A stretch of DNA of 32,761 nt from Planctomycetota bacterium (GTDB lineage Bacteria > Planctomycetota > UBA11346). Location: the NCBI GenBank assembly GCA_007693455.1, contig REDP01000196.1, positions 1-32,761 of the forward strand, given 5' to 3'. The notes beneath the pieces were generated by a model, which was given only the letters and a program-made list of their open reading frames with translations, was not told the DNA's origin and did no database searches. Below, in pieces: positions 10,989 to 32,760 of the stretch (position 1 is the stretch's first letter; each line of letters begins with the position of its first letter). The translations under genes and the position numbers were made by a program.

Positions 10989-11040
10989 CAGGGCGACTCA
11001 ACGCTCGCCCCCGGGATCGCCGATCTCCCGATCGGCAGCA
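10989..11040 (+). repeat. Truncated copy (F) of the MITE-like family 1, left half only
   Basis: CAGGGCGACTCAACGCTCGCCCCCGGGATCGCCGATCTCCCGATCGGCAGCA matches the left TIR plus first hairpin of the full copies; no right end found. Confidence 0.75.
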
Positions 11041-12490: not shown

Positions 12491-12884
12491 AGGTGATTTG
12501 AGGCCCCAACGGGGCTTCACGTGCTACCCTGGATGTGCGCGGTAGGGGATTTGAAGATATACCCCTTGTATCAATGCGCCCTGGCCTAGGGCGTGCGACC
12601 CTGGGTGTGTACAATAGGGGTTTGAAGCCCCAACGGGGCTTCGCATGATAGCCCAGGGTTGCACGCAACGCGTGCTACCCTGGGTGTGCGTGTCTTTTGA
12701 ATCAACCCTGAAAGGGTTGCGCAGGCTCAGCTTCGGAGGGGAGCAGGATGGCGTCACGATTGATACGCCTTCGCAACCCCGTTGGGGTTGCCTCGCTCTT
12801 CCTTCCATTCCCAGGGTAGCGCTCAGGGAGCGCAACCCTGGGCTGGGCTACGGAGCCCCGTTGGGGCTCGATGAGACCACAGGC
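12491..12884. repeat. Cluster of palindromic repeat family 2 (nested 3-nt-loop hairpins, degenerate tandem units)
   Basis: Repeated 'gtgctaccctgg(a/g)tgtg' at about 12521, 12592 and 12672; hairpins GCCCC-AAC-GGGGC (twice), CAACCCT-GAA-AGGGTTG, GCAACCCC-GTT-GGGGTTGC, GAGCCCC-GTT-GGGGCTC, plus two nested CCCAGGGT...ACCCTGGG hairpins. Confidence 0.85.
12792..12884 (+). repeat. 93-bp unit of repeat family 2, inverted relative to 32668-32760
   Basis: CTCGCTCTTCCTTCCATTCCCAGGGTAGCGCTCAGGGAGCGCAACCCTGGGCTGGGCTACGGAGCCCCGTTGGGGCTCGATGAGACCACAGGC equals the reverse complement of 32668-32760 with 5 mismatches. Confidence 0.9.
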
Positions 12885-12908
12885 CTGAGCATTGCGAATG
12901 CTTCATGC

Positions 12909-18116: not shown

Positions 18117-18221
18117 CAGGGCGGCGCAAAGCTTGCCCCCGGGATCGCCGATCTCCTGATCGGCCGGCAAAGACGCCCTGAATAGGGCGCTTTTACCCAA
18201 GGTGAGCTTTGAGCCGCCTTG
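18117..18221 (+). mobile_element. MITE-like family 1 copy C (105 bp, internally deleted)
   Basis: CAGGGCGGCGCAAAGCTTGCC...GGTGAGCTTTGAGCCGCCTTG; flanked by CTTGCGCCGC (18107-18116) and CTTGCGCCGT (18222-18231); lacks the CCGCGAAGCGG hairpin segment. Confidence 0.8.
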
Positions 18222-20879: not shown

Positions 20880-21023
20880 CAGGGCGGCGCAAAGCTTGCC
20901 CCCGCGGGATCGCCGATCTCCTGATCGGCCAGCAAAAGCGCCCTGAATAGGGCGCTTTCTGCATGAGAAGTACGCCCCGCGAAGCGGGCATTCCTGGCCC
21001 AAGGTGCGCTTTGAGTCGCCTTG
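20880..21023 (+). mobile_element. MITE-like family 1 copy D, between pflB and pflA
   Basis: CAGGGCGGCGCAAAGCTTGCCCCCGCGGGATCGCCGATCTCCTGATCGGCC...GCGCCCTGAATAGGGCGC...CCCCGCGAAGCGGG...AAGGTGCGCTTTGAGTCGCCTTG. A second left-end-like sequence (caactcaaagctcgcc) lies at about 20843-20858. No flanking duplication found. Confidence 0.75.
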
Positions 21024-24577: not shown

Positions 24578-24622
24578 GGAGGCACTGTGAAAGCCCGTGC
24601 TTAAGGCGCAAGGTGCAAAGAC

Positions 24623-24783
24623 CCCAGGTTCCCAAGGCGGCTCAAAGCTCACCTTGGATAAGGAATTCCCGCTTCGCGGTGTATGCTTTTGGCGCAAAAG
24701 CGCCCTATTCAGGGCGTTTTCGCAGGCCGCTCGGGAGAGCGGCGCTCCCGGGGGCGAGCTTTGAGCCGGCCTGCCCAGGTTCC
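24623..24783 (-). mobile_element. MITE-like family 1 copy A (element 24633-24773, 141 bp) with flanking 10-bp direct repeats
   Basis: CCCAGGTTCC at 24623-24632 and at 24774-24783, exactly abutting CAAGGCGGCTCAAAGCTCACC...GGCGAGCTTTGAGCCGGCCTG (inverted termini). Opposite orientation to the other copies. Confidence 0.88.
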
Positions 24784-24877: not shown

Positions 24878-27079
24878 ATGCCAATACATGAAGCTGCTGT
24901 AATGAGTCTTGTACGCGCCCAATGCGGCGATCCGTTTGCCATTTTAGGGATGCATCCAGATGGGGATGGTGGTCAGAGTATTCGCGTGTGGTGGCGCGGG
25001 GCGCGAGCTCTGCGCTGGCGCCGACGTGATGGCGATCGCTCTGAGATACCCCTGCGGCGGGTTCACGAAGACGGCCTTTATGAGGGACATCTGCCCGACT
25101 ATCCCGAGGCAGTGCCCTACGAGATCCTTGTCGATGCCGGCGATGGGGTGTATGTGCCCCATCGTGATCCCTATTCTTTTTGGCCCCAGTTGAGTGATTT
25201 CGATCTCGAGCGCATTCAAGCGGGGCAGCATCACCATTTAGAACAGGTGCTTGGTGCCCACCTCTGTCAGGTGGACGGTGCCTGGGGCGTGCGCTTTGCC
25301 GTATGGGCGCCAGATGCCCAACGAGTTAGCGTGATTGGTGACTGGAATGGCTTCGATGGCCGCTATCACCCCATGCGTAAGCGTCATCCAGTCGGCGTGT
25401 GGGAGCTGTTCATTCCCCAGGTTGCGCCGGGTATGCTGTATAAATATGATGTGCTTGGCTGTGATGGCATAGCCCGTGCCAAAGCCGATCCTTGTGCGCG
25501 TGTAGCAGAAATACCTCCAGCAACGGCCTCTATTGTGGCCGAGCCAGACGAGTATCAGTGGCACGATGACGCCTGGATGCAGGCGCGTCCCGATAGCGAG
25601 TGGTGGCGCCAGCCCATGGCCATTTACGAAGTCCATCCAGGATCCTGGCAGCGCGGCGACAATGATCAGCATCTGTCGTGGACCGAAATGGGGCAGCGCC
25701 TAGTAGAGCATTGCCGCAACTGTGGTTTTACCCATGTGGAGTTTTTACCGCTGAGCGCCCATCCCTACGAAGGCTCGTGGGGCTACCAGGTGAGCGGCTA
25801 TTTTGCCCCCAATTCGCGCCATGGTTCACCATTAGAGCTCAAAGCTATGGTGGACATGCTGCATCAGGCTGGCATTGGCGTGATTGTCGATTTTGTCCCC
25901 GCCCATTTTCCCAAGGACGCCTTTGCCTTGGCCCGTTTTGATGGCACCGCATGCTACGAGTATGCCGACCCCCGCGAAGGCGAACATAAAGAGTGGGGCA
26001 CCCTGATCTTTAATTATAAACGCCCCGAGGTGCGTAATTTCCTCTTGGCTTCGGCATTGTTTTGGTTGCGCGAATTCCATATCGATGGCCTCCGAGTGGA
26101 CGCGGTAAGTGCCATGCTGTACCGCAATTATGATCGCAGCGAAGGCGAGTGGCTGCGCAATGAGGAAGGCGGCAACGCCAATCTTGAGGCAGTGAGTTTC
26201 CTTCAGGAGTTAAATGCAACGGTGCACAATCTCTTTAAGGGGGTGGTGACCTGCGCCGAGGAAAGCACTGCCTGGCAGGGCACCACGGCTCCCACTGAAT
26301 GGCAGGGTCTGGGCTTTGATCTCAAATGGAATATGGGCTGGATGCATGACACCCTGCGCTATCTCTCGCAGGACCCCGTCATGCGTTCGGGATCGCATAA
26401 CCTCATCACCTTCCATCAGTGGTATGCCTATGACGAAAAGTGGATTCTGCCCTTAAGTCATGACGAAGTGGTGCACGGAAAGGGCTCGCTGCTCGACAAG
26501 ATGCGCGGTGATTATGGCCAGCGTTTGGCTTCCTTGCGCTTGCTGTATGGCTATCAAGTGGCGGTGCCCGGTCGAAAGTTACTCTTTCAGGGTGCGGAAA
26601 TCGGCCAAGGCCGCGAGTGGAGCTGGCAGCGCTCCATCGACTGGCATGAAGGAGAATTTCCCGAACGGCAAAACCTCTGTCGTTTTCTCAGTGCTGCCTT
26701 GGCCTTGTATGGCAAAGAGGCGGCCTTACATGGCAATGACGACCAGCGCGCAGGATTCCAATGGGTGGACGATCAAAACCCCCGCGAATCCATACTCGCT
26801 TTTTTACGGCGCGCGCCAGGTGCCCGCGATGTTCTTGTGGCGTGTAATTTTACCCCTGTGCCCCGTCACGCCTATCCCTTGGGCTTGCCGCAGGGGGGCG
26901 CCTGGGAAGTGCTATTGAACTCCGATGAACAACGCTTTGGTGGGAGCGGCAGTGGAGCCAGCGGCACCCTTGTCTCCAGCGAGAGCGAATCCCTGGATGG
27001 CTGGCCAGCGATGCTGCGCCTGCCGCTTGCGCCCTTGTCCATTTGCTTTTTGGCTCCTGCGCCAAGCACAGGGGAGTAA
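24878..27079 (+). CDS. glgB: 1,4-alpha-glucan branching enzyme
   Basis: CGDPFAILGMHPDG, VSVIGDWNGFDGRYHPM, YEVHPGSW, GLRVDAVSAMLY, AEESTAW, LSHDEVVHGKGSLLDKM. Confidence 0.96.
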   Translation: MPIHEAAVMSLVRAQCGDPFAILGMHPDGDGGQSIRVWWRGARALRWRRRDGDRSEIPLRRVHEDGLYEGHLPDYPEAVPYEILVDAGDGVYVPHRDPYSFWPQLSDFDLERIQAGQHHHLEQVLGAHLCQVDGAWGVRFAVWAPDAQRVSVIGDWNGFDGRYHPMRKRHPVGVWELFIPQVAPGMLYKYDVLGCDGIARAKADPCARVAEIPPATASIVAEPDEYQWHDDAWMQARPDSEWWRQPMAIYEVHPGSWQRGDNDQHLSWTEMGQRLVEHCRNCGFTHVEFLPLSAHPYEGSWGYQVSGYFAPNSRHGSPLELKAMVDMLHQAGIGVIVDFVPAHFPKDAFALARFDGTACYEYADPREGEHKEWGTLIFNYKRPEVRNFLLASALFWLREFHIDGLRVDAVSAMLYRNYDRSEGEWLRNEEGGNANLEAVSFLQELNATVHNLFKGVVTCAEESTAWQGTTAPTEWQGLGFDLKWNMGWMHDTLRYLSQDPVMRSGSHNLITFHQWYAYDEKWILPLSHDEVVHGKGSLLDKMRGDYGQRLASLRLLYGYQVAVPGRKLLFQGAEIGQGREWSWQRSIDWHEGEFPERQNLCRFLSAALALYGKEAALHGNDDQRAGFQWVDDQNPRESILAFLRRAPGARDVLVACNFTPVPRHAYPLGLPQGGAWEVLLNSDEQRFGGSGSGASGTLVSSESESLDGWPAMLRLPLAPLSICFLAPAPSTGE

Positions 27080-27243
27080 CCTTTTTTGCAAGGTGGCTCA
27101 AAGCTCGCCCCCGGGATCGCCGATTTCCTGATCGGCCTGCGAAAACGCCCTGAATAGGGCTTTTTTTTGCGCCAGAAGCATACACCGCGAAGCGGGAATT
27201 CCTTACCCAAGGTGAGCTTTTTGAGCCGCCCTGACCTTTTTTG
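27079..27243 (+). mobile_element. MITE-like family 1 copy B (element 27089-27233, 145 bp) with flanking 10-bp direct repeats
   Basis: ACCTTTTTTG at 27079-27088 and 27234-27243, abutting CAAGGTGGCTCAAAGCTCGCC...GGTGAGCTTTTTGAGCCGCCCTG. Confidence 0.9.
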
Positions 27244-30896: not shown

Positions 30897-31057
30897 CATC
30901 CCACCTCAGAGCGACTCAAAGCCTGCCCTCGGGATCGCCGATCTCCTGATCCGCCTGCAAAAATAACCTGAATAGGGCGCTTTTTGCGCTCAAAGCATGG
31001 ACCGCAAAGCGGGGATTCCTTTTCTAGACAAGCTTTGAGCCGCCCCGCATCCCACCC
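30897..31057 (+). mobile_element. MITE-like family 1 copy E (element 30907-31047, 141 bp) with near-perfect flanking direct repeats
   Basis: CATCCCACCT at 30897-30906 and CATCCCACCC at 31048-31057, flanking CAGAGCGACTCAAAGCCTGCC...CAAGCTTTGAGCCGCCCCG. Confidence 0.82.
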
Positions 31058-32528: not shown

Positions 32529-32667
32529 GTCAGCGCTTAGCCCTGGAGCAATATGCGCCGTTTCCCAGGCCCTATCCCAGGTCCCCTGCAGAATGACGCA
32601 AGCCACGCTCCCTGGGCTGCCGATCCCCTGATCAATGCCAATAAGTATTGGCGGTACAGAAACCCAT

Positions 32668-32760
32668 GCCTGTGGTCTCATCGAGCCCCAACGGGGCTCC
32701 GTAGTCCAGCCCAGGGTTGCGCTCCTTGAGCGCTACCCTGGGAATGGGGGAAAGAGCGAG
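32668..32760 (-). repeat. 93-bp unit of repeat family 2, continues to or past the window end
   Basis: Reverse complement of 12792-12884 with 5 mismatches; contains CCCAGGGT-T-GCGCTC-CTT-GAGCGC-T-ACCCTGGG and GAGCCCC-AAC-GGGGCTC hairpins. Confidence 0.9.

Follow-up and report, generated by a model that had tools for sequence, protein, structure and literature searches.

Promoter targeting by bacterial transposases has previously been described for a few Mutator-like families. The elements TnGBS, ISLre2 and ISKra4 (p-MULT 3 and 4) have Mutator-like transposases and insert upstream of sigmaA promoters, at a constant distance from them (PMC3942029). For TnGBS and related Mutator-like elements, insertion occurs 15-17 bp upstream of the -35 box. 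The inverted repeats of TnGBS-type elements set the insertion orientation through their asymmetry; where the ends are nearly symmetric, both orientations occur (PMC3942029, PMC4701971). Here we describe a family of MITEs that was noticed in a 32,761-nucleotide stretch of DNA from a Planctomycetota bacterium (the window). Most copies of this family also lie at a fixed distance upstream of predicted promoters, and the ends of the family match those of an ISAs1-family insertion sequence.

There are six copies or fragments of the MITE in the window, at 10989, 18117, 20880, 24633, 27089 and 30907. The original prediction described an element with inverted termini between two exact ACCTTTTTTG direct repeats, and we confirmed this arrangement. 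The type copy (145 bp; 27089..27233, + strand) has terminal inverted repeats at 27089..27109 (left, +) and 27211..27233 (right, +), and is flanked by ACCTTTTTTG at 27079..27088 and 27234..27243 (neither assigned a strand). It is placed between convergent genes, and the left duplication begins, at 27079, on the final base of the glgB stop codon. Within the type copy are an internal hairpin, GCCGATTTCCTGATCGGC (27119..27136, +), and an intrinsic-terminator-like hairpin, GCCCTGAATAGGGC, followed by a run of T (27147..27168, +). Because a run of A precedes the latter hairpin, it is possibly a bidirectional terminator.

Three further copies had been predicted, and all three are real and have the flanks that were described. 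The copy at 24633..24773 is on the minus strand and has the 10-bp duplication GGAACCTGGG (minus-strand reading; 24774-24783 and 24623-24632). The copy at 30907..31047 (+) has the duplication CATCCCACCT/C. The copy at 18117..18221 (+; duplication CTTGCGCCGC/T) is an internally deleted form of ~105 bp. Two copies had not been listed: a degenerate one (20880..21023, +), with a duplication past recognition, and a left-end fragment (10989..11036, +). In a genome of the same genus (G001), a very degenerate MITE-like match (contig C148; L136 3926-4066) lies close to the ortholog of the 24633 locus; it could reflect an older insertion common to both genomes or an independent one. The window also contains a second, unrelated repeat family. 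This family includes a 96-nt inverted pair (12792-12887 and 32665-32760; 94% complementary) and matches at 12626-12684 and 12497-12529, carries AGCCCCAACGGGGCT and CCCAGGGTAGC hairpins, and had five matches in 381 kb sampled of the source genome and none in 568 kb of the congener.

We determined how widely the MITE is distributed. The source genome (G000; 3.63 Mb) is a fragmented assembly of 334 contigs and is 91% complete. From 275 first-look candidates, 41 family matches were scored in it. The end motif CARGGCGGCTCAAAGC, allowing up to two mismatches, occurred 338 times, compared to once for the reversed control. Overall, there are dozens to hundreds of copies in the source genome and in one congener. 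Among 59 related genomes, the family was found only in that congener, G001, where most scored copies have 85-89% identity to the type copy; orthologous blocks of the two genomes are mostly 60-76% identical when aligned. Exact-pattern scans with the MITE core found none in the contigs of GTDB r220 or in viral contigs, collections that may leave out the source genome itself or very near genomes, so the MITE looks genus-restricted. Two weak matches in other genera of the same bacterial family were very short, lacked the element ends and were taken as chance. Copies are ~142 bp and non-coding, with ~20-bp imperfect terminal inverted repeats and several internal hairpins, including a terminator-like one. 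The family has the features that define a MITE: it is short and non-coding, has inverted ends, target-site duplications and many dispersed copies, and shares its ends with a resident IS.

The length of the target-site duplication was determined from copies whose boundaries were fixed by the inverted ends. Copies were retrieved by similarity, and hence lean to younger ones. Flank identity was at background for all lengths except k = 10, where it was 0.87, compared to 0.30 for mispaired flanks (38 copies). The 10-bp flanks agreed at 9 or 10 of 10 positions in 50 of 64 copies, compared to 0.15% of mispaired flanks. When the set was enlarged to 90 distinct copies, 66 agreed at a minimum of 9 of 10 positions (~0.15% by chance). 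These data fix the length of the target duplication at exactly 10 bp. The duplications of 9-10 bp that had been predicted are real, with the length narrowed to a single value, and the enrichment of direct repeats at copy flanks is far beyond chance, as had been argued for the four pairs in the window. The fraction of copies with a matching duplication drops in more diverged copies, as expected from decay.

Unoccupied target sites, which the original prediction had proposed to look for, were found in part. At the site of the 27089 copy in the congener, the DNA sequence continues uninterrupted through the glgB stop codon and a single ACCTTCCTCG, with no element. At the 30907 site, the alignment reaches the first base past the duplication, also with no element. 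The unoccupied target is visible on one side only at both sites; two-sided alignments mostly failed because the intergenic DNA is too diverged.

The MITE had been predicted to be mobilized in trans, and a search for an IS with matching ends identified a candidate driver. The single ISAs1-family transposase in the source genome is encoded on contig C217, where one copy of the IS is assembled (L049; 1004-2894; ends CAGGGCGACGCAAAGCTC / GAGCTTTGAGTGGCCCTG). The ends of this IS are those of the MITE, apart from substitutions that are mostly seen among MITE copies too, and there is no similarity between the two outside the terminal repeats. The transposase matches both DruA (PF14236) and transpos_ISAs1 (NF033564). 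It is frameshifted: frame 1 contains DruA and the N-terminal part of ISAs1, frame 2 contains the remainder, and the frame change is in an A7 run that could reflect decay, an assembly error or a programmed frameshift. The IS has no matching duplication. The right flank of the IS and that of one MITE copy in the congener are orthologous (73% over 468 bp), while its left flank differs from the congener's, indicating that the contig belongs to the same genus and that the IS is at a synteny breakpoint, which explains the missing duplication. No ISAs1-type IS was detectable in the congener at E <= 1e-10, and a search of genome contigs with the C217 transposase recovered only a distant fragment.

Elements with similar properties are present elsewhere. 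Other genera of the phylum also encode DruA-ISAs1 fusions. One of these elements, in G106, is bounded by CACGGC..GTCAAAGT (CACGGCAACGTCAAAG / CTTTGACAGCGCCGTG) and flanked by an exact duplication of 10 bp, GGGAGATTAT. In G143, the ends of a plain ISAs1 element are CAGGGC, and its duplications are likewise 10 bp long. The ends and duplication length of the MITE agree with those of ISAs1 elements. It is well supported that the MITE, with its many copies and an autonomous-type element whose ends match, located elsewhere in the genome, is moved in trans by an ISAs1-type enzyme, and we infer that the C217 IS, or a lost sister, supplied it. An IS1-, IS4- or IS256-like enzyme, which had been suggested from the duplication length, is probably not the driver, given that the one resident IS identified with matching ends is of the ISAs1 family. 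DruA-domain proteins were also detected in multi-copy elements of G138 (L269-L272) and G227 (L273-L276), whose ends are unlike those of ISAs1. The distribution of DruA (DUF4338), described as a GNAT-like domain (PMC10853773), suggests that it is a recurrent accessory module of bacterial transposons.

We aligned copies on their ends and analyzed the sequence outside them. With 63 copies aligned, TT at +22/+23 was the one strong signal. Among the 90 copies, TTG starts exactly at +22 in 50 (36 on the right, 16 at the mirrored left position, 2 on both), compared to ~2% at other offsets. The near-exclusive use of left or right is predicted if there is one promoter per insertion. TTG is within 1 bp of +22 on either side in 63 of 90 copies (control offsets, 1 to 10); the remaining 27, the type copy at 27089 among them, have none within 1 bp on either side. 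The copies used to find the +22 offset overlap with those used to test it, a minor concern given how sharp the signal is and that it recurs in both genomes. For the source genome alone, TTG was present on the right in 19 of 52 copies (p = 1e-18) and on the left in 7 (p = 1e-5); for the congener alone, the corresponding numbers were 17 of 38 (p = 3e-19) and 9 (p = 2e-8).

Individual loci illustrate the arrangement. Strong single cases include TTGTTT-N17-TATAAT and TTGCCC-N17-TATACT, and CTTGCATA occupies the equivalent position, +21..+28, outside the left end of the C217 IS. Of the window copies, the one at 24633 obeys the rule and the one at 27089 is an exception. The right end of the 24633 copy faces a minus-strand transporter-like gene with a likely start ~55 bp away. 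The predicted -35 box, TTGCGC, is at +22 to +27 past that end (24606..24611, -), and CTTGCGCC is at the expected place for a promoter, in a stretch that is also present in the congener; the -10 match is weak. The 30907 copy was rejected as a promoter example: it has CAA at the mirrored left position and is still counted among the 16 left matches, but the gene points away. One locus has the structure TSD-A-TSD-B-TSD, with tandem copies and GGCAAGCCCC three times (one of them mismatched at one position), which would be expected had one and the same promoter-proximal site been used for both insertions.

Our preferred explanation for these findings, to which we assign a probability of about 0.8, is a MITE moved in trans by a DruA-ISAs1 DDE transposase, with a 10-bp cut and a target fixed upstream of the -35 box. 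An ISAs1-family DDE transposase with an N-terminal DruA domain would act on the ends of the MITE and make a 10-bp staggered cut. The 10 bp that become duplicated, its preferred target, would span about -56 to -47 relative to the transcription start (with the -35 hexamer taken as -35 to -30), 11 bp upstream of the -35 box. The element would thereby insert 21 bp upstream of the -35 box, in either orientation, with its right end preferably facing the promoter. The promoter would probably be recognized as an RNA-polymerase-bound or polymerase-shaped complex, rather than as a short motif.

The strongest alternative is that the transposase reads a short motif directly (CTTG ~11 bp outside the cut) and that promoters are incidental, brought in by the TTG. 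TTG is indeed the strongest part of the signal, and we consider this unlikely without dismissing it. Against it, a -10-like hexamer follows the TTG at a spacing of 15-18 bp, with the best average matches at 15 and 16. Element-adjacent TTG sites precede such boxes more often than other TTG sites do (p = 6e-10) and more often than in shuffled sequences (p = 9e-13 right; p = 5e-5 left). Copies without a right TTG had no right-side -10 signal (p = 0.40). Further, the gene beside the end that faces the promoter points outward in 33 of 36 right and 14 of 16 left cases. Promoters were predicted from sequence with E. coli weights, and the genes around copies are simple longest-ORF calls. With that qualification, position, -10 boxes and gene direction support the placement of insertions by predicted promoters. 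Direct recognition of an extended promoter sequence is compatible with both the -10-box enrichment and the outward genes, and we retain it as an alternative.

Random insertion, followed by selection that keeps harmless upstream copies, is improbable. Most copies lie between genes that diverge or run in the same direction, and the terminator-like hairpin could perhaps insulate the downstream promoter, both of which would suit such a process. Yet a peak one base wide (on right flanks, TTG at +22 in 36 copies, at +21 in 6 and at +23 in 2), in the same register in both genomes, is not easily made by selection. Mobilization by a known promoter-targeting Mutator-like transposase of the TnGBS, ISLre2 or ISKra4 type is more improbable still. 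Insertion at a fixed distance upstream of sigmaA promoters by such elements (PMC3942029) speaks for it, but the MITE ends (CAGGGCGGCTCAAAGC) match those of the ISAs1 element, and here 21 bp separate the element from the -35 box, compared to the published 15-17 bp. There was no match to the ISKra4 transposase (NF033572) in the source genome; a search for UPF0236 (PF06782) also gave no match, a weak result since it was silent in every control genome too. That the copies are static REP- or terminator-like repeats that never transposed, as the several internal hairpins and terminator-like stem might suggest, can be dismissed given the 10-bp duplications at one boundary in most copies and the element-free 27089 and 30907 sites in the congener, and the original prediction had rightly favored transposition.

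For the preferred explanation, a DruA-ISAs1 transposase directed upstream of promoters, the location of the target bears on how a promoter might be sensed. The interval from -56 to -47 corresponds to the distal site of the alpha C-terminal domain of RNA polymerase, and this overlap makes tethering to polymerase, or a polymerase-induced bend, attractive if unproven. It is possible, though less likely than not, that the ISAs1-family transposase, perhaps via DruA, is tethered to promoter-bound RNA polymerase, and that promoter-guided transposition arose independently of the Mutator-like families. No promoter register was visible in the DruA-containing elements of G138 and G227, so DruA alone does not explain targeting. 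Plain ISAs1 copies in G143 and G307 had no TTG at +22, with too few copies to judge. In G106, TTGAC is at +19 in 3 of ~16 ends, which is suggestive only. Two shorter-looking DruA-ISAs1 derivatives were seen in that genome, L254 (ends ~700 bp apart) and L255, and TTGACA-N16-TATAAT starts 19 bp beyond the left end of L254. These two derivatives are a possible second case of promoter targeting.

Promoter targeting in an ISAs1-linked MITE suggests that this habit evolved more than once. In a lineage that has not been cultured, the copies serve as natural promoter markers, the majority flagging a predicted -35 box, and they provide a small and testable setting in which to study promoter sensing by transposases.

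The MITE shares features with several known systems. Static REP or terminator repeats differ from it in that the MITE has flanking duplications and its position is not conserved. MITEAba12 (PMC6382973) and the Correia elements, as reviewed in PMC10969869, are likewise short and non-coding with inverted repeats and target duplications, and the terminal repeats of MITEAba12 also match a resident IS. In contrast to the family described here, the target sites of MITEAba12 showed no sequence trend, and both MITEAba12 and Correia elements are described as having promoters of their own (PMC6382973, PMC10969869), whereas here the promoter is the host's and is outside the element. Ty1 also integrates at a defined position upstream of genes, to which the transcription machinery directs it through tethering to RNA polymerase III (PMC10050235); Ty1 is a yeast retrotransposon, and for the MITE, tethering would be to a bacterial polymerase and is no more than a possibility. 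With ISAs1 insertion sequences, the family shares terminal repeats that start with CAGGG, 10-bp duplications (as in G143 and the G106 fusion) and, through its candidate driver, a match to NF033564. It differs in that the MITE is non-coding and has only the terminal repeats in common with the C217 IS, which itself has the additional DruA domain. We found no report of promoter targeting by ISAs1 in the openly available literature searched. The closest likeness in targeting is to TnGBS, ISLre2 and ISKra4, from which the MITE is set apart by an ISAs1-family rather than a Mutator-like transposase, a distance of 21 bp and a duplication of 10 bp.
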